Of a DNA stretch of 56,163 nt, positions 1 to 11,765 are shown in pieces (position 1 is the first letter of the stretch; each line of letters begins with the position of its first letter). The stretch lies in assembly GCF_002796975.1 (NCBI RefSeq), contig NZ_PEKV01000012.1:138619-194781 (forward strand). The letters are read 5' to 3'. Source of the DNA: Ferrovibrio sp. (GTDB lineage Bacteria > Pseudomonadota > Alphaproteobacteria > Ferrovibrionales > Ferrovibrionaceae). The translations under genes were made by a program, and so were the position numbers. Below the pieces are notes generated by a model. That model worked only from the letters and a program-made list of their open reading frames with translations, was not told the DNA's origin and made no database searches.

Positions 1-435
1 GCCGTTGCCGCCGGGCAGCGCGCCATCGGCAGCCGAGCGTGCGTCGAACATCAGCCAGTCGACGGCGTCCTCGTAGTCTTTCGCGGCCTTCAGGTCGGCC
101 TTGGTCGCAACCTTGATCGCCTTGATGATCGGCAGGCCGAAATAGACGCTGATGGCGCGACAGCGTTCTGGCGTCTCGTCGCCATGCAACTGCAGCAGGT
201 CGAGCCGCGCCTTGGCGAGAATCTGGTCGAGGAAATCGGTTTCCGGATCGACGAACAGCCCGACACGGTCGATGCCGCTCGGCACGTTGCGCAGCAGGTC
301 TTCCGCCTGTTCAGCGCTGACATTGCGCGGCGAACGCGGATAAAAGACGAAGCCGACCATATCGGCGCCATGCTCCACTGCCGTGTCGACGGCAGTTGCA
401 TCGGTCAGGCCGCAGATCTTGGTGAACAAAGCCAT
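1..435 (-). CDS. trpF: Phosphoribosylanthranilate isomerase (partial, 3' end outside window)
   Basis: Isomerises N-(5-phosphoribosyl)anthranilate in tryptophan biosynthesis. The minus-strand reading frame starts at ATG 435 with MALFTKICGLTDATA, the TrpF N-terminal signature containing the catalytic Cys (KICG). It continues through FVFYPRSPR and LLQLHGDE to the window edge, so the C-terminal part is missing. It starts one base after the pyrF stop codon on the same strand, so pyrF and trpF are probably cotranscribed. The longer open frames on either strand over this stretch are shadows. Confidence 0.93.
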   Translation of the reverse strand, partial: MALFTKICGLTDATAVDTAVEHGADMVGFVFYPRSPRNVSAEQAEDLLRNVPSGIDRVGLFVDPETDFLDQILAKARLDLLQLHGDETPERCRAISVYFGLPIIKAIKVATKADLKAAKDYEDAVDWLMFDARSAADGALPGGNG

Positions 436-436
436 C

Positions 437-1174
437 TTACGCGGCCCCCGACATGCTTTCTGTCAGTTCCTGCGCGATAGCCTGTGCGCTGGCTTCGGGA
501 TTTGGCGATTCGGTGATCGGGCGGCCAATCACCAGATGGTCGGCGCCCAGTTTCAGGGCTTCGCCGGGGGTCATCACGCGCTTCTGGTCGCCGGCCGCCG
601 AGCCCTTGGGACGGATGCCGGGCACCACCAGCTTGAAGTCCGGGCCGCAGGCCTTGCGCAGCATGTCGATCTCGGTGGCGGCGCAGATCACGCCGTCGGC
701 ACCGTTGGCCTGCGCCATCTTAGCCAGCCGCACGACATAACTGCTGACATCTTCGTTCACACCGATCGCCTGCAGGTCGGCGGTATCCAGCGAGGTCAGG
801 GCGGTGACGGCGAGGATCCAGGGACGCTGGCGCGCCTGATGGGCGGCATCCACGGCCTGACGGATCATGGCCGGACCGCCCGAAGCATGCACGGTCAGCA
901 TCATCGGACCCATGGCGGCGGCGGCCGAGCGCACCGCGCCGGCGGCGGTATTCGGGATGTCGTGGAATTTGAGGTCGAGGAACAGCGGCGTGCCGGCCGG
1001 CAGGATGGCGCGCACTTCCGTCGGGCCATGGGCGGTGAAGAATTCCTTGCCCAGTTTCACCCCGAAACCGGCGGCGGCGGCGGCGCGGGCGCAGCGCGCG
1101 GCGAAGGCCAGTTCAATCGTGTCGATGGCGCAGAAAACCGGAGCGATGCGGCCGGAGAGGGATGTCTTGCTCAT
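437..1174 (-). CDS. pyrF: Orotidine 5'-phosphate decarboxylase
   Basis: Decarboxylates OMP to UMP, the last step of de novo pyrimidine synthesis; cytosolic. The 245-residue product is normal length for the family. It has the catalytic D-x-K-x-x-D motif in LDLKFHDIPNT (D67, K69, D72), a VPGIRP segment and a C-terminal GADHLVIGRPIT phosphate-binding segment. The first 11 residues are variable; the ATG at 1174 is used because no closer start keeps the first beta strand. It lies directly upstream of trpF with a one-base gap. Confidence 0.96.
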   Translation of the reverse strand: MSKTSLSGRIAPVFCAIDTIELAFAARCARAAAAAGFGVKLGKEFFTAHGPTEVRAILPAGTPLFLDLKFHDIPNTAAGAVRSAAAAMGPMMLTVHASGGPAMIRQAVDAAHQARQRPWILAVTALTSLDTADLQAIGVNEDVSSYVVRLAKMAQANGADGVICAATEIDMLRKACGPDFKLVVPGIRPKGSAAGDQKRVMTPGEALKLGADHLVIGRPITESPNPEASAQAIAQELTESMSGAA

Positions 1175-1245
1175 GGGCCGGGCTTATAGCGCAAAGTGTT
1201 GCGGAAGTCTCCCCCCGGCAGTGCCGGCAATCTCCGGATTTCGGC

Positions 1246-2016
1246 TCAATTCCCGCGGGAAACCGCGGCTTTAATCCCGGCCCTGTCGACGGCCCGGCCC
1301 AGGGACTGCCCCAGCGCCGCCGCCCAGCAGGCATAGCCCAGATCGTTCATATGCAGGCCGTCGGGCGTGACCATATCGGCCATCTGCAGGCTTCCGTTGC
1401 GCAGCCAGCCGCGCATGATGTCGAACCGGCGGAACAGGCCGACTTTGGTTTCGGCTGCCAGTTCGGCGAGGATTTTCTGCATCGCCTTATGGTCGGGATC
1501 CTGCAGCACCTTGGGCGCATATTGCAGGTCGATCAGCACGACATCGATTCCGGCCGCCTGCAATGTCGCGATGCCCTGGCGGATATGGGCGCGATACACC
1601 TCGACGCCCTGGGAGCGCAGCACGGCATTGGTGCCGAGCTGCCACAGCACCAGATCTGGTTTCAGATCGACCGCATCGGCGTGCAGTCGCTGGTTCATCT
1701 GGATGACATCCTGGCCGTTGATGCCGCGGTTATGGATCACAGCATCGCCGCCGACCAGCTGGGTCCATCGTCTGCCAAGCTGTGCGGGATAACTATAGGC
1801 CGGATCACTGGCGCCGGCGCCGCCCGTCGAGGATGAACCGAGGGCGACCACGGTGACGGTTTCCCTGCGCGCCAGCCGCGCAGCCACGCGCGGAAGCGGC
1901 TGCCCGAGATCGATCAGCTTTGCAGACGTGACGCAGCGGTCTGTCGCGCCGGCGACAGCGGTTTGCGGTGCGGCAGCCAGCAGCGCCAGCAGGATCGCGA
2001 CGACGATGGAGCGCAT
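1246..2016 (-). CDS. Secreted SGNH/GDSL-family hydrolase (copy 1)
   Basis: Predicted periplasmic esterase or acyl-hydrolase of the SGNH fold, 256 residues. A signal peptide covers about residues 1-23. Block I is ALGSSST (GDS replaced by GSS, nucleophile about S62), block II NRGINGQD around N100, block III LGTN (N130), and block V PDGLHMND with D219 and H222, so the catalytic set looks complete. Its ATG overlaps the stop of copy 2 (TGATG); a GTG at 2019 is the alternative start. It is the last gene of a three-gene set behind an OpgC-like acyltransferase, which suggests de-acylation or acyl transfer on an envelope glycan. The substrate is not known. Confidence 0.82.
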   Translation of the reverse strand: MRSIVVAILLALLAAAPQTAVAGATDRCVTSAKLIDLGQPLPRVAARLARRETVTVVALGSSSTGGAGASDPAYSYPAQLGRRWTQLVGGDAVIHNRGINGQDVIQMNQRLHADAVDLKPDLVLWQLGTNAVLRSQGVEVYRAHIRQGIATLQAAGIDVVLIDLQYAPKVLQDPDHKAMQKILAELAAETKVGLFRRFDIMRGWLRNGSLQMADMVTPDGLHMNDLGYACWAAALGQSLGRAVDRAGIKAAVSRGN

Positions 2017-2756
2017 CACGGTCTGGTTTTTCGGGCTGCAGCGGCGATCATGTCCGCCATCTGGTTCGCCAGGCAGCGGTTCTGTGCTTCCGCCTCGTGC
2101 ATCTGCTTGGCCTGGTCGGCGGTGCGGGAATCGAAGCGGTCCTCTTCCGCCCAGTGCCGCATGATCTCGAAACGCGGAAACAGCACGACATCCTCGGCCG
2201 AGGCGATCTGCTGCATCACATTGTTATAAGGCCCGACATCCACCATCACCGACAGCCGCAGGCGATATTGCGGTGCCACCAGCAGGATGTCGGCGCCATA
2301 ACTCTGCAGATGCGCCAGTCCGTCTTTCAGCGCCTCGGAGAAGCTGTTGATATCGACCTTCTGGGCGGCATCGACATTGCCGGTCTGCCAGATCACCAGG
2401 TCCGGCTGTTTCGATGGCAGGCTCTGGATGATGTCGGCCATCTGTGCCGCCGTCAGTGTCCGCTGCGACAGATTCTCGATCTGCAGCTGGGCGCCGTCGA
2501 GGCGGACGGCCAATGCGTCGTGCAGTCCGGCCGCATAAGAGCGCGGCAGGCCCTTGGCGTTTTGCAGGGATGACGAGCTGCCGAGCACCACGATGCGCAG
2601 CGGCTGGCTGGCCGCAAGCTTGCGCGCCACGCGCGGCATCGCCTGCTCGGTATACAGCATGTCGCCGGGCACATTGCAGCGCTCGTCGGCGGCACGGGCA
2701 CTCGCCGTCCAGAGCAGCAGCATGGCGATGCCGGTCAGAAGCCGACGGGATATCAT
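2016..2756 (-). CDS. Secreted SGNH/GDSL-like protein (diverged copy 2)
   Basis: A 246-residue paralogue of the downstream gene: both begin after the signal peptide with an RC...MPRVA(R)/LPRVAARLA segment and share VVLGSSS and D-L-V-(I/L)-W-Q-x-G. Signal peptide about residues 1-22. The block I serine is S61. Block III reads WQTGNVDA. The usual D-x-x-H of block V is replaced by QAKQMHEAE, keeping H220 but not the Asp at -3. It may therefore be inactive, use another acid, or act as an accessory subunit. The start at 2756 overlaps the OpgC-like stop (ATGA), which indicates translational coupling. Confidence 0.75.
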   Translation of the reverse strand: MISRRLLTGIAMLLLWTASARAADERCNVPGDMLYTEQAMPRVARKLAASQPLRIVVLGSSSSLQNAKGLPRSYAAGLHDALAVRLDGAQLQIENLSQRTLTAAQMADIIQSLPSKQPDLVIWQTGNVDAAQKVDINSFSEALKDGLAHLQSYGADILLVAPQYRLRLSVMVDVGPYNNVMQQIASAEDVVLFPRFEIMRHWAEEDRFDSRTADQAKQMHEAEAQNRCLANQMADMIAAAARKTRP

Positions 2757-3937
2757 GCTTTCACCTCGCCGGCCTTTCGGCCGCTTTCCACCGCCTTGTA
2801 CCATGTCATCAGCGCGGCCAGCCCGACCAGCAGGGCCATGCCGGCCAGGCTCACGGCAAATTGCGCCGCCAGTCCGGGGGCGATTTCGCTCAGCACGAAA
2901 TGGCCGGCGAAAGACAGGAAGATGCCGGCGCAGAAGACATGCAGGGAATGCTGGCCGCACAGGATCAGCAGGCTGCTCGCGCGCCAGCGTAAGAATCCCG
3001 CATCGGGCGGCACCAGCTGTACGACCAGCCAGGCCAGGGCCAGGAAATGCAGCAGCCGCCAGGTGTCCATCTCGGTCTTGTCGATCGGGTAGAGCAGGCG
3101 CTCGATCACATCCGGCACGCGGCTCGACCATTCCGGCCGCAGCCAGCTCAGCACGATCACCAGGGCAAAGATCACATACAGGATGGCGGCGGCGGTAATG
3201 GCTTTCCGCGGCAGACGCCGCCACGGCGCCTGCTGGCGATGCATGGCGCACCAGGCGCCCAGCACGAACAGGAACTGCCAGGCCAGCGGGTTGAAGAACC
3301 AGCGTCCGGCCGGATAGGCCGGCAGATTCCAGTGCGTGAACTGCACGGCGCACCACAGCGCAAAGGACGCCGCCAGCACGATATGAGGGCGCCTCTGCAT
3401 CAGCCACATCACCGGCGGGAAGGCGCCCATCAGCGCGATATACATCGGCAGCACGTCCATGTTGACCGGCCGGAATTTCAGCAGCAGCGCCTGCAGCATC
3501 AGGATATGCGGCTCCTCGAACAGCGAACCGATATTCATTTCCTCGGCGAGGTCGAGATTGTAGCGCGTGGCGAGCCAGGCGATCTGCGCGATGAAGATGA
3601 TGAACAGGAAGACATGCGCGGTGTAGATCTGCCACACGCGCCGCCAGATCCGCGCCGTGCCGATCACAAAGCCCTGGCTCTGCATGGCGGCGCCGTAGGC
3701 CAGCAGCACCGAATAGCCGGAGATGAAGACGAAGGTCTCGGTGGCGTCGGAAAAGCCGTAATTGCGGTTCGACAGCCAGCTGACGGCGTTATTGGGAATA
3801 TGGTTCAGGAAGATGAACAGCAGCGCCAGGCCGCGGAAGAAATCCAGCCGCAGGTCGCGCAGCTTGGCCGCCGGTTTGCCGACAGCAGAAATTCGATCCG
3901 TCGCGGTCATCGCAGGCGCCATCCTCCTGTTCCCCAT
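2753..3937 (-). CDS. OpgC-domain membrane acyltransferase
   Basis: A 394-residue polytopic inner-membrane protein of the OpgC family, whose characterised member succinylates osmoregulated periplasmic glucans. It opens with RDLRLDFFRGLALLFIFLNH and the DATETFVFISGYS segment typical of the family, followed by about ten hydrophobic helices. The N-terminal arginine/aspartate and the FxxH motif are present. The start at 3937 is the furthest in-frame ATG; ATGs at 3922 and 3910 are possible alternatives. It leads a coupled operon with two secreted SGNH hydrolases, a pairing that suggests acyl transfer across the membrane to a periplasmic or exported glycan. The acyl group and acceptor cannot be read from the sequence. 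Confidence 0.85.
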   Translation of the reverse strand: MGNRRMAPAMTATDRISAVGKPAAKLRDLRLDFFRGLALLFIFLNHIPNNAVSWLSNRNYGFSDATETFVFISGYSVLLAYGAAMQSQGFVIGTARIWRRVWQIYTAHVFLFIIFIAQIAWLATRYNLDLAEEMNIGSLFEEPHILMLQALLLKFRPVNMDVLPMYIALMGAFPPVMWLMQRRPHIVLAASFALWCAVQFTHWNLPAYPAGRWFFNPLAWQFLFVLGAWCAMHRQQAPWRRLPRKAITAAAILYVIFALVIVLSWLRPEWSSRVPDVIERLLYPIDKTEMDTWRLLHFLALAWLVVQLVPPDAGFLRWRASSLLILCGQHSLHVFCAGIFLSFAGHFVLSEIAPGLAAQFAVSLAGMALLVGLAALMTWYKAVESGRKAGEVKA

Positions 3938-3991
3938 TATCGGGAGCCGCTAGGATCGGGGCAATCCCTCCCAACGCCTGTCCGAGCGCTC

Positions 3992-5038
3992 ATGTCCCGT
4001 TCCCGACGCCTCCTTCCTTTTGCCGGGCTCCTTCTCGCCCTCTCGGCCGGCCCGGCCGTGGCCCAGGACGCCGCTTCCCTGACCGGTGCCGGCATCCTGA
4101 TGTACCACCGCTTCGGCGAGAATACGGTGCCGAGCACCAATATCCGGCTCGAACAGTTCGATGCCCATATCGCCGAGCTGAAATCCGGGCCCTACCATGT
4201 GATGGGCCTGCCCGAGATCGTGGCCAAACTGAAATCCGGCGAGAAACTGCCCGACCGTGCCGTCGCCGTCACTGCCGACGATGCCTATATCTCCGCCTTC
4301 ACCGAGGGCTGGCCGCGGCTGAAAAAGGCCGGCATTCCCTTCACGCTGTTTGTCGCCACCGAGCCGGTGACGTCGAAACTCCGGGGCTACCTGACCTGGG
4401 ACCAGATCCGCCAGATGAAGGCGGAAGGCGTCACCATCGGCGCGCACAGCCATCGCCATCCCTCGCTGCCCGCCCTCGGCCCCGACAAGGCGCGCGAGGA
4501 TCTCGAAACCTCGATGGCGCTGTTCGAGAAGGAACTGGGCGAGAAGCCCAAACTGTTCGCCTGGCCCTTCGGCGAATGGGATGCGCCGACGCTGAAGCTG
4601 GTGAGGCAGTTCGGCTACAGCGCAGCCTTCGGCCAGCATTCCGGCGTGGCGCACAGCCAGCACGACATGTTCTGGCTGCCGCGCTTTCCGATGAACGAGC
4701 ATTTCGGCAGCGTCGAGCGCGTGCGCCAGGCGCTGAACTCCCTGCCGCTGCCGGTCAGCGATATCGAGCCGGCCGACGTGCTGGTGAAGCTGGGGCAGAC
4801 GCAAAACCCGCCAGTTTTACGCTTTACTGTGGCGCCGGGCGTCGAACGGCTGAACCAGATGGTCTGCTACACCGGTGAGGGCAGGCAGCTGACGCCGAAG
4901 CCGATCGGCGAGCGCCGTTACGAGATGCACGCGCCCGAAGCGCTGAAACCGCCGCGCGACCGCATTTCCTGCTCGGTGCCGTCCAGCCAGCAGGGCCGGT
5001 TCCGCTGGTTCGGCATCCAGTTCACCGTGGCGAAATAG
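3992..5038 (+). CDS. Secreted polysaccharide deacetylase family protein
   Basis: Predicted NodB-homology carbohydrate esterase (CE4-like), 348 residues. Signal peptide about 1-23 (ending GPAVAQ). The NodB domain covers about residues 30-230: ILMYHRF, AVTADDAY (metal/catalytic Asp pair; the usual TFDDG is altered), GAHSHRHPSL (H-S-x-x-H metal ligands) and FAWPFGEWD. About 100 further residues follow with two cysteines and no recognised domain. The start at ATG 3992 gives a proper signal peptide; the longer open frame upstream runs antisense through the opgC-like gene. It is divergent from the OpgC/SGNH operon by 54 bp and may act on the same envelope glycan. Confidence 0.87.
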   Translation: MSRSRRLLPFAGLLLALSAGPAVAQDAASLTGAGILMYHRFGENTVPSTNIRLEQFDAHIAELKSGPYHVMGLPEIVAKLKSGEKLPDRAVAVTADDAYISAFTEGWPRLKKAGIPFTLFVATEPVTSKLRGYLTWDQIRQMKAEGVTIGAHSHRHPSLPALGPDKAREDLETSMALFEKELGEKPKLFAWPFGEWDAPTLKLVRQFGYSAAFGQHSGVAHSQHDMFWLPRFPMNEHFGSVERVRQALNSLPLPVSDIEPADVLVKLGQTQNPPVLRFTVAPGVERLNQMVCYTGEGRQLTPKPIGERRYEMHAPEALKPPRDRISCSVPSSQQGRFRWFGIQFTVAK

Positions 5039-5100
5039 ACTGGGCTGCCTAAAGCCCTGTTCGCCAAGGACTGTTGAACGTTCGGCTGGATTTTGGCGGG

Positions 5101-5220
5101 CCAGTTCGCGCCCGTTCGAGCCCATTCAGGGGCCAGTTTAGTCCCATTCAGAACCTGTTTCGTCCTGTTCCGTCCCGTTAGAGCCTGTTTGAGCCTGTCA
5201 GAGCCCGTTACAGCCAGGCA
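5101..5220. repeat. Degenerate 10-bp tandem repeat array
   Basis: Twelve short units built on the core CC(t/c)GTT recur here. From 5154 to 5214 seven consecutive units are spaced by exactly 10 bp (core starts 5154, 5164, 5174, 5184, 5194, 5204, 5214; the last is degenerate). Five earlier units start at 5101, 5111, 5121, 5133 and 5143, with 10-12 bp steps. Weaker traces reach back to about 5056. Because the period is not a multiple of three and the units drift, this is not coding. The 5039-5337 stretch holds no other feature I can support. The spacing matches one turn of B-DNA. Confidence 0.7.
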
Positions 5221-5337
5221 CGGCACATACAAAGGTATTCACATTGTCCAACAACAAATGAGAACATATAGTGTACATGAGGCGTGGCCGAATGTCCACC
5301 GGCTTGCTAAAAGCGCGGGGCCTGCGCATGGAAAGAC

Positions 5338-6171
5338 ATGACCCCGCTCCGAAAAACCTATCGCATCAACGGTTACGACCTCTCGGTGCTGGAGGCCGGC
5401 GAGGCCAGCGCCATCCCGCTGCTGCTGGTGCATGGCTCGCTCTGCGACCAGCGGATCTGGACCGCGCAGCTGGCGGCCTTCGCCGGGCACGCCCGCGTGC
5501 TGGCGCTCAGCCTGCGCCATTGCTGGCCCGAGACATGGGACGGTCGCGGCGATGGCTATGATATCCGGCAGCATGCCGAGGATATCGCGGCGCTGATCCG
5601 GCAACTCGATGTCGGTCCGGTGCATCTGCTCGGCCATTCGCGCGGCGGCCATGTCTGCTTCCGTGTTGCCCAGCATCACCCCGACAGTCTTCGCACGCTC
5701 ATCCTGGCCGAGCCGGGCGGTCAGCTCGATCCGGTGCTGGCCGATCATGGCGCGCCGCCGCCGGGTGCTGACCTCGGCCAGATGTTCGAAGACTCCGCCA
5801 GGCTGATAGCAGGCGGCGAAACCGATGCCGGGCTGGAGCTGTTCGTGACGGCCGTCGGCGGGCCGAAGGCGTGGAAATATGCCAGCGAGGGCTTCAAGGC
5901 GATGGCGCGCGACAATGCCGCCACCATCATCGGTCAGGCGCGCGAGGCGCGGCTCACTTTCATGAAAGCGGAAATCGAAAGCATCGATCTGCCAGTGCTG
6001 CTGATCGGCGGCGCGCTGACGCGCGGGCATTTCCCCAAAGTGCTGGACGCGATGCAGCGGCTGATGCCCGATGCCGAGCGTGTCACCATCGCCGGCGCCG
6101 CCCATCCGATGTACGAGCAGCGCCCGCAGCCGTTCAACGATGCAGTGCTGGGGTTTCTGGCGTTGCGCTAA
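5338..6171 (+). CDS. Alpha/beta hydrolase
   Basis: A 277-residue single-domain alpha/beta hydrolase without a signal peptide, so probably cytosolic. The oxyanion loop is VHGSLCD (residues 31-37). The nucleophile elbow is GHSRGG with S101. The C-terminal catalytic His is H256 in GAAHPMYEQRP, followed by a short last helix. The substrate cannot be predicted. The ATG at 5338 follows the tandem-repeat region. The 3' end overlaps the convergent HEPN-like gene by 4 bp. Confidence 0.9.
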   Translation: MTPLRKTYRINGYDLSVLEAGEASAIPLLLVHGSLCDQRIWTAQLAAFAGHARVLALSLRHCWPETWDGRGDGYDIRQHAEDIAALIRQLDVGPVHLLGHSRGGHVCFRVAQHHPDSLRTLILAEPGGQLDPVLADHGAPPPGADLGQMFEDSARLIAGGETDAGLELFVTAVGGPKAWKYASEGFKAMARDNAATIIGQAREARLTFMKAEIESIDLPVLLIGGALTRGHFPKVLDAMQRLMPDAERVTIAGAAHPMYEQRPQPFNDAVLGFLALR

Positions 6172-10128: not shown

Positions 10129-10214
10129 GTCATGGCCGGACTTGTTCCGGCCATCCACGTCTTACGCCTTGCTGTCTGAAAGGCGTGGATACCCGGGACA
10201 AGCCCGGGTATGAC
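10129..10214. repeat. Composite palindromic REP-like element
   Basis: Two palindromes sit back to back: ATGGCCGG (10132-10139) pairs with CCGGCCAT (10147-10154), and ATACCCGGG (10189-10197) pairs with CCCGGGTAT (10203-10211). Between them CGCCTT and AAGGCG plus ATCCAC and GTGGAT can pair around a short loop with a 5-nt bulge. The ends are GTCAT and ATGAC. A one-palindrome relative lies at 11737-11765 and a third member at 36853-36954. The element sits just after the MGMT-like gene and may act as a transcription terminator or mRNA 3' stabiliser. Confidence 0.6.
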
Positions 10215-10305
10215 GACTTTGGTGTGGGCGTGGTTATGCGCAAATTGCACCCCGCCAAATTTCCGGTTGACCGATCACCGGCCCCGCATTACCGTCCGCG
10301 TCACC

Positions 10306-10380
10306 ATGCAGAGCATTATTCTCACCGTAGCTACCATTAAGGTTACCGTCGTCGGCGGTGCCCTGGGTCGTTGCGCGTAG
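10306..10380 (+). CDS. Putative Thr/Ile/Val-rich leader peptide of the short ThrRS gene
   Basis: A 24-codon ORF from ATG 10306 to TAG 10380. Of 13 codons between residues 4 and 16, three are Thr (ACC), three Ile (ATT) and four Val, with one Leu: residues 4-16 read IILTVATIKVTVV. The frame stays open upstream to a TTG at 10267, which would add further Thr, Ile and Val codons. No clear ribosome binding site is visible. The stop lies 27 bases before a GC-rich hairpin and 110 bases before a threonyl-tRNA synthetase gene. This is the arrangement of ribosome-mediated attenuation, as in enterobacterial thr and ilv leaders. Confidence 0.62.
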   Translation: MQSIILTVATIKVTVVGGALGRCA

Positions 10381-10448
10381 AAAGATAACGCAAAGCAGAC
10401 AAACCCAGAGGCCCCGCCGGCGACGGACGGGGCCTCGGTGTTTCTGGG
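10363..10448 (+). promoter_or_regulatory. Attenuator with alternative antiterminator and terminator stems
   Basis: Terminator stem: GAGGCCCCG (10408-10416) pairs perfectly with CGGGGCCTC (10428-10436), followed by a modest U-containing tail GGTGTTTCT. Competing stem: CTGGGT (10363-10368) pairs with ACCCAG (10403-10408), and inside it TTGCG (10371-10375) pairs with CGCAA (10389-10393). ACCCAG overlaps the 5' foot of the terminator. The 5' arm of the competing stem lies in the last codons of the leader ORF, so ribosome position would decide which stem forms. The weak U-tract is the main reservation. Confidence 0.55.
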
Positions 10449-10489
10449 GCTTCGTTCATCGCCGGTCGCTTCGCAGACCGGAGAGCGAC

Positions 10490-11722
10490 ATGAACAGTTT
10501 CAGTCCCAGATTGAACGCCGAAGCCGACCCTTATGACCATCGCGTGCTGGGCACGCGGCTGGACCTCTTCCACCAGCAGGAGGAGGGCCCCGGCATGGTG
10601 TTCTGGCATCCGCGCGGCTTTGCGCTGTATCGCGTGATCGAGGATTACGTGCGCCGGCGCATGCGCGAGGTCGGTTTCGCGGAAATCCGCACGCCGCAGC
10701 TGCTCAGCTACAGCCTGTGGGAACAGAGCGGCCATGCCGACAAGTTCGCCAACGAGATGTACCGGCTCGACAGCCGCTCGTCGGGCGGCAACCGCCAGTT
10801 CGCGCTCAAGCCGATGAGCTGTCCCTGCCATGTGCAGGTGTTTTCCAAGAGCTTGCGCTCTATACGCGACTTGCCATTACGCTACTGCGAATTCGGCGCC
10901 TGCCATCGCGACGAACCCTCGGGCGCGCTGCAGGGCCTGATGCGGACCAAGAGCTTCACGCAGGACGATGCGCATATCTTCTGCACGGAGGCTCAGGTCG
11001 AGGGCGAGGTGCAGCGCTTCTGCGAGCTGCTGCGCAGCATCTACAGCGATTTCGGCTTCGGTGCGCCGCTGGTGTTCTTCTCGACGCGGCCGGCCAAGCG
11101 TGCCGGCGACGATGCCACCTGGGACCGCGCCGAGGCGGCTCTGGCGATGGCGGCGCGCCGTGCCGGGCTCGATTTCGGCATCAAGAGCGGCGATGGCGCC
11201 TTCTATGGCCCGAAGCTGGAATTCCACCTGCGCGACAGCCATGGCCGGGCCTGGCAGTGCGGCACGATCCAGCTCGATTTCGTGCTGCCCGAGCGGCTGG
11301 GTGCCGATTACGTGGCCAGCGACGGCAGCCGCCAGCGGCCGGTGATGATCCATCATGCCGTGCTGGGCAGCATGGAACGCTTCATCGGCATGCTGCTGGA
11401 GCATCACAAGGGCCAGCTGCCGCTCTGGCTGGCGCCGGAGCAGATCACGGTGGCGAGCGTGACCGATGCGCAGGAGGCTTATGCCCGCAAGGCGGCGGCC
11501 GCGCTGGGTCGTGAGGGCTATCGTGTTGCCGTCGATGGCCGGACGGAACGGATCGGCCGCAAGATCGCCGAGGCGCATGACCAGGGCCTGCCGCTGCTGG
11601 CGATTGCCGGCGAGCGCGAGGCTGAGCGCGGCACGCTCACCTTCCGTCGCAGCAATGGCCGGCAGGAAGAGCTGACGCTGGCCGATGCGGCACGGCGCTA
11701 CCGCGAGGAGGCGTTCCGGTAG
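10490..11722 (+). CDS. Threonyl-tRNA synthetase paralogue lacking TGS and editing domains
   Basis: Charges tRNA-Thr. The 410-residue product starts directly at the class II catalytic core, whereas standard bacterial ThrRS is about 640 residues with N-terminal TGS and editing domains. Zinc ligands are present: C111 in KPMSCPCHV, H162 in FTQDDAHIFC and H288 in MIHHAVLGSMERF. Motif 2 is RYCEFGACHRDEPSG; the usual RVRGFTQ is RTKSFTQ. An anticodon-binding domain covers about 310-410. GGAG precedes ATG 10490. A leader ORF and attenuator lie upstream, so expression probably rises when threonyl-tRNA is low. Accessory short ThrRS genes are known as stress or inhibitor-resistant forms. That role is inference here, because the housekeeping thrS is not in the window. 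Confidence 0.88.
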   Translation: MNSFSPRLNAEADPYDHRVLGTRLDLFHQQEEGPGMVFWHPRGFALYRVIEDYVRRRMREVGFAEIRTPQLLSYSLWEQSGHADKFANEMYRLDSRSSGGNRQFALKPMSCPCHVQVFSKSLRSIRDLPLRYCEFGACHRDEPSGALQGLMRTKSFTQDDAHIFCTEAQVEGEVQRFCELLRSIYSDFGFGAPLVFFSTRPAKRAGDDATWDRAEAALAMAARRAGLDFGIKSGDGAFYGPKLEFHLRDSHGRAWQCGTIQLDFVLPERLGADYVASDGSRQRPVMIHHAVLGSMERFIGMLLEHHKGQLPLWLAPEQITVASVTDAQEAYARKAAAALGREGYRVAVDGRTERIGRKIAEAHDQGLPLLAIAGEREAERGTLTFRRSNGRQEELTLADAARRYREEAFR

Positions 11723-11736
11723 GGCACGTAAAAATT

Positions 11737-11765
11737 GTCATGCCCGGACTTGATCCGGGCATGAC
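11737..11765. repeat. REP-like palindrome (single unit)
   Basis: A perfect 11-bp inverted repeat, GTCATGCCCGG (11737-11747) and CCGGGCATGAC (11755-11765), with a 7-nt loop ACTTGAT. It belongs to the same family as 10129-10214 and 36853-36954. It sits 15 bp after the short ThrRS stop and could serve as its transcription terminator, though no U-tract follows. Confidence 0.65.

Follow-up and report, generated by a model that had tools for sequence, protein, structure and literature searches.

The window analysed here is a 56,163-nucleotide stretch of the genome of a Ferrovibrio sp. (Alphaproteobacteria; contig NZ_PEKV01000012.1). Its positions 10267-11722 hold a compact unit (Table 1) in which TTGACC, 17 nt, TACCGT, 10 nt, a leader ATG, a leader stop codon, a terminator hairpin, GGAG, and a gene for a short threonyl-tRNA synthetase (ThrRS), designated thrS2, follow one another. 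The leader ORF, MQSIILTVATIKVTVVGGALGRCA, has 24 codons, of which three are for Thr, three for Ile, and four for Val. An earlier note on this DNA had described such a 24-codon ORF rich in Thr, Ile, and Val that ends 27 nt before a terminator, and we confirmed its coordinates (10306-10380, with the terminator core starting at 10408). No further copies of the leader sequence were found in the genome. REP-like GC-rich palindromes (CCCGG...CCGGG) lie on both sides of the thrS2 unit, at 10133-10217 and 11738-11765.

Table 1. Features of the thrS2 unit, in coordinates of the window.
Feature	Position	Strand	Basis or remark
Putative -35 element, TTGACC	10267..10272	+	Sequence
Putative -10 element, TACCGT (weak match)	10290..10295	+	Sequence; leader ATG 10 nt downstream
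Leader peptide ORF, MQSIILTVATIKVTVVGGALGRCA*	10306..10380	+	Stop codon 10378-10380; Thr codons at 10324, 10333, 10345
Hairpin 1:2 (TACCGTC / GGCGGTG)	10344..10360	+	Begins at last Thr codon; equivalent in 19 leaders tested
Region 2, antiterminator 5' arm, within leader ORF	10346..10368	+	Pairing analysis
Terminator hairpin	10401..10443	+	Core 10408-10416 / 10428-10436; weak U-tract; compensatory changes in relatives
Region 3, antiterminator 3' arm, overlaps terminator 5' arm	10403..10426	+	CCCCGCCGG invariant in 30 leaders
Shine-Dalgarno sequence of thrS2, GGAG	10480..10483	+	Sequence
thrS2, short threonyl-tRNA synthetase, 410 aa (P0002)	10490..11722	+	Catalytic and anticodon-binding domains only

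The thrS2 product matches the Pfam models PF00587 and PF03129 and nothing more; TGS and tRNA_SAD are absent, which bears out the earlier description of a ThrRS made of catalytic and anticodon-binding domains alone. Its score against the thrS equivalog model TIGR00418 is 456.6 bits, above the curated cut-off of 383.65, and its nearest solved structures are bacterial ThrRSs. The second ThrRS of the genome, on contig C26, is a full-length enzyme with TGS and tRNA_SAD; this is the gene whose presence the earlier note had proposed to check. All 26 short ThrRSs compared keep the zinc ligands C334, H385, and H511 (E. coli numbering) and the class II catalytic residues that were tested, and the thrS2 product is presumably an active synthetase. 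Two positions that are near-invariant Asn and Arg in 109 full-length enzymes are replaced in the short ones: residue 333 is Ser in 26 of 26, and residue 512 is His in 25 of 26. In the thrS2 product the two are residues 110 and 289, which adjoin the zinc ligands C334 and H511. Some divergence is seen as well at anticodon-domain positions 575, 577, 583, and 585. In each of two trees, of which the second includes the Burkholderiales copies, the short ThrRSs make up one side of a single branch (SH-aLRT 100); both trees are unrooted and do not imply that the short form originated in the Alphaproteobacteria.

Within the genus of the window, thrS2 occurs in eight of ten genomes, and it occurs in one of eight other genomes of the family, some of these genomes being incomplete. 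Every family genome that is at least 90% complete and has thrS2 retains a full-length thrS too. In an even sample of the class, thrS2 was counted, by open-frame lengths, in 13 of 385 genomes. Other genomes of the phylum also carry it, as do large replicons of Burkholderia arboris and Caballeronia sp. SBC2; the plasmid matches examined were from Burkholderia, Caballeronia, Acetobacter, and Methylobacterium. A scan of the genome contig collection found no short ThrRS among 80 loci.

The earlier note had proposed comparing the leaders of orthologous short ThrRS genes and had counted missing conservation of the leader ORF or stems as one refutation; the comparison did not refute its proposal. A leader ORF and the attenuator core precede the short ThrRS gene at all 29 loci examined, which represent nine alphaproteobacterial families and the Burkholderiales, and the ORF is positioned some 80-130 nt upstream of the enzyme gene. 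Four to ten Thr codons are present in 25 of these leaders (for example, MSALFVTTTTTTTTTANGGPGGGCTS), and three Thr codons in each of the remaining four, which belong to the window and its closest relatives. An upstream ORF with at least four Thr in ten residues was found for 14 of 18 short thrS genes, as against 6 of 110 full-length thrS genes; the four short genes that fail this rule have three Thr codons and are of the type found in the window. A covariance model was built from 18 short-thrS leaders and one orphan; in its input structure a single inner pair was shifted by one position, and the conclusions are independent of that pair. All 11 leaders outside the model matched it, with E-values from 1.5e-8 to 4e-23, the Burkholderia arboris and Caballeronia sp. 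leaders among them. The full-length thrS loci included in that search gave a weak match at most (11.5 bits). One of the six full-length genes mentioned above, at locus L105, has a complete Thr-leader attenuator directly before it (3540-3681, minus strand). No short thrS was found in the genome of that locus (G012, 73% complete), and its attenuator is either an orphan that followed loss of thrS2 or one captured by thrS.

Nearly all orthologous leaders are preceded by a TTGAC-type hexamer and a spacer of about 17 nt, and the distance from the -10 element to the leader ATG is 5-11 nt in 30 of 30 leaders. A promoter-like pair so close to the start codon predicts a leaderless or nearly leaderless mRNA, and in the window transcription is accordingly predicted, from the sequence, to start at or very near the leader ATG.

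The main antiterminator pairing in the window joins 10346-10362 to 10410-10426 (17 nt, 88% complementary), and the terminator pairs 10401-10416 with 10428-10443. Because region 3 is common to both pairings, antiterminator and terminator are mutually exclusive, and the three pairings 1:2, 2:3, and 3:4 exclude one another in the manner expected of an attenuator. The alternative stem of the earlier note, CTGGGT (10363-10368) with ACCCAG (10403-10408), is present, but it is just the tip of the antiterminator. Folding of the window leader region has a z-score of -5.3 relative to shuffled sequences. In this genome no proper U-tract accompanies the terminator (GGTGTTTC), which an intrinsic-terminator scan did not list; orthologues have better U-tracts (such as CCTTTTTC), the tract being good in most relatives and weak in the window. 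A search of the window leader against Rfam found no family, Thr_leader and T-box included, at the gathering threshold, and for the leaders of five relatives, searched with an E limit of 1, the one match was an unrelated tRNA.

The invariance of CCCCGCCGG in region 3 across relatives is expected of a segment that has two alternative pairing partners to serve. Outside CCCCGCCGG, the terminator pairs show compensating variation; the pair designated t-2 is G-C in 22, A-T in 5, and G-T in 3 of the 30 leaders, so that pairing persists through the changes. Counted from the beginning of the last Thr codon, the motif GGCGG mostly lies 9-12 nt downstream; L105 has CGGGG in its place, and L186, a weak case, lacks it. 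GGCGG is read as Gly-Gly in most leaders and as Arg-Arg or Trp-Arg in four, and this use of another frame at four loci points to selection on RNA pairing rather than on the peptide. The subclade of the window is the least typical, with three Thr codons set amid Ile and Val codons and a weak U-tract.

To model the switch, we placed a ribosome codon by codon on each leader and folded a transcript cut just before region 4. In nearly all 30 leaders, pairing of region 3 with the leader was about 0.7-1.0 with the A-site on the Thr run and dropped to about zero around the end of the run. Shuffled versions of region 2 still paired with region 3, with a mean of 0.60 versus 0.84 for the real sequences; part of the effect is therefore GC content, and the folding result, taken by itself, is modest evidence. 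For the window leader, a stall at Thr 7 or Thr 10 gave full antitermination, and at Thr 14 the value was 0.3, already fading, a profile by which stalls at Ile, Leu, and Val codons would count too. Equilibrium folds of whole leaders mostly favoured the terminator even when a ribosome was stalled on the leader and did not discriminate between ribosome states, which were discriminated only when the transcript was cut before region 4. The switch must therefore be kinetic.

We propose, with a probability of roughly 0.87, that thrS2 encodes a backup, editing-free ThrRS under ribosome-mediated transcription attenuation that senses the charging of Thr-tRNA. RNA polymerase would start at the AUG of the short, Thr-codon-rich leader ORF or very close to it. 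With Thr-tRNA(Thr) plentiful, the translating ribosome would pass the Thr codons and cover region 2, leaving regions 3 and 4 to pair; the terminator would form, and thrS2 would be off. With Thr-tRNA(Thr) scarce, whether through Thr starvation or through inhibition of or damage to the main ThrRS, the ribosome would stall at the Thr codons, region 2 would pair with region 3, no terminator would form, and thrS2 would be made. A leader that reports on Thr-tRNA would thus control a product that makes Thr-tRNA, and a backup synthetase is the simplest reading of that arrangement.

In E. coli, pheST is a synthetase gene with a leader-peptide attenuator. The thr leader of E. coli, thrL (Rfam Thr_leader), is likewise a Thr-codon leader with competing stems, but it controls biosynthesis genes, and the thrS2 leader would control a synthetase. 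Bacillus subtilis, with thrS and thrZ, makes a second ThrRS when Thr-tRNA charging falls, the same logic as proposed here; thrZ, however, is controlled by a T-box that reads tRNA directly, with no leader peptide. Leader-peptide attenuation of synthetase genes has been described for leuS and trpS2 of Streptomyces (PMC1262725) and for hisS paralogues of Bacillus (PMC2965389), so the earlier note somewhat overstated its case in calling such control of a minimal, editing-free ThrRS unusual. The thrS2 unit shares with pheST, leuS, trpS2, and hisS a leader ORF with cognate codons, an antiterminator, a terminator, and a synthetase downstream, and the Bacillus and S. avermitilis attenuators likewise concern extra copies; it differs from all of them in its amino acid, Thr, in the lack of an editing domain, and in its conservation across Alphaproteobacteria and Burkholderiales. 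Synthetases, paralogous copies included, were thus already known to come under leader-peptide control, and the Thr case adds threonine to the synthetases apparently under such control; our literature search, which covered subscription journals only in small part, found no earlier description of a ThrRS gene preceded by a Thr leader. What is joined here is a putative charging sensor and a proofreading-free paralogue, in a unit that has long been kept together, in more than one bacterial class, and leaders of this kind offer a means of recognising such backup enzymes. A further parallel is the attenuator trpL of Sinorhizobium meliloti, likewise alphaproteobacterial, in which the RNA begins with the leader AUG (PMC7298713, PMC10117765). 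That leader has Trp codons, precedes trpE, and has had its leaderlessness measured, whereas leaderlessness of the thrS2 leader is predicted.

It is possible, although we think it doubtful, that the leader of the window's own subclade has drifted and now senses general shortage or shortage of Ile, Thr, or Val rather than of Thr specifically, or that the element is decaying. The composition of MQSIILTVATIKVTVV (3 Ile, 3 Thr, 4 Val), the prediction that a stall at any codon up to about 12 gives antitermination, and the weak U-tract would all fit drift. Against it, the first 42 nt of the leader are identical in four species among which third positions of thrS2 are only 77-82% identical, and the rare codons in that stretch (GTA, 1%; GTT, 5%) are preserved; region 3 is intact, as are both stems. 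Moreover, Thr and Ile codons occur together in the E. coli thr leader as well.

Two further readings, both weaker than that of a backup synthetase, concern the conditions that the enzyme serves. The duplicated ThrRSs of Anabaena are similar to the present pair in that an accurate main enzyme, T1, is accompanied by a stress-induced second one, T2, without good editing; T2, however, is induced by zinc limitation and still has an editing domain, though a degenerate one, whereas thrS2 lacks the N-terminal domains altogether and has a Thr attenuator upstream (PMC4787780). That thrS2 should be a low-zinc paralogue of the T2 type, induced when zinc is short, is improbable. The N333S and R512H replacements do flank zinc ligands, and zinc shortage would reduce charging and hence trip the leader; all three zinc ligands are retained, however, thrS2 has its own Thr leader instead, and the alphaproteobacterial ThrRS paralogue that does look linked to zinc is a different, full-length gene, on an Acetobacter plasmid. 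At that locus (L241, Acetobacter oryzifermentans, 406-5960), thrS lies beside genes for a transcriptional repressor, DUF1826, folE, hisI, and a TonB-dependent receptor, a neighbourhood that looks like a low-zinc response cluster.

The earlier note had spoken of an emergency or resistance synthetase. Emergency synthesis when charging fails remains the best reading, but a dedicated resistance enzyme against natural ThrRS inhibitors like borrelidin or obafluorin, for which the attenuator would serve as sensor, is slightly less credible even than the zinc reading. ThrRS inhibitors would also trigger a leader that senses low Thr-tRNA, the replacements beside the zinc ligands are fixed in the short enzymes (26/26 and 25/26), and second ThrRS copies are known as immunity proteins, as with ObaO, Gly463 to Ser being an experimentally proven resistance change (PMC11252418). 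All short copies, however, have Gly at 463 (E. coli numbering), not the Ser that confers resistance, which argues against an inhibitor-immune ThrRS of the ObaO type; the other positions compared near the inhibitor pocket (307, 309, 334, 335, 489, and 493) look like those of ordinary ThrRSs, and a casual inspection of the neighbours of thrS2 in the window revealed no inhibitor gene cluster.

A ThrRS without editing would be expected to mischarge with Ser, unless its products are edited in trans by the full-length enzyme, which has been shown for the Anabaena pair (PMC4787780). There is a slim chance that Thr scarcity exchanges an accurate for an error-prone ThrRS and that Ser is tolerated at Thr codons to keep translation going, which would amount to programmed, starvation-triggered mistranslation. 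The putative backup synthetase and its leader make a clean, portable system for asking whether starving bacteria trade translational accuracy for charging capacity.

The attenuator core extends beyond ThrRS genes. The covariance model also finds it, with leaders that combine Thr and Lys codons (for example, MMRFATKTTTTKTTTFGGPARTCA), before the aspartate-semialdehyde dehydrogenase gene asd in several Alphaproteobacteria (loci L153, L154, L155, L157, L161, L166, and L168; product identity was checked for four). In S. meliloti, the Thr/Lys sORF SEP5 precedes a gene there called aspartate dehydrogenase (PMC10117765), and SEP5 is probably the same thing as the Thr/Lys asd leaders. The core looks like a shared alphaproteobacterial attenuator design in which the leader codons follow the gene that is controlled. 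At locus L167 (genome G077, around 1576), a similar core precedes a gene for a GNAT-like acetyltransferase, and its leader has Phe, Trp, and Tyr codons (MSEFRFSGMWFSYWSTGRGPKVQRMR).
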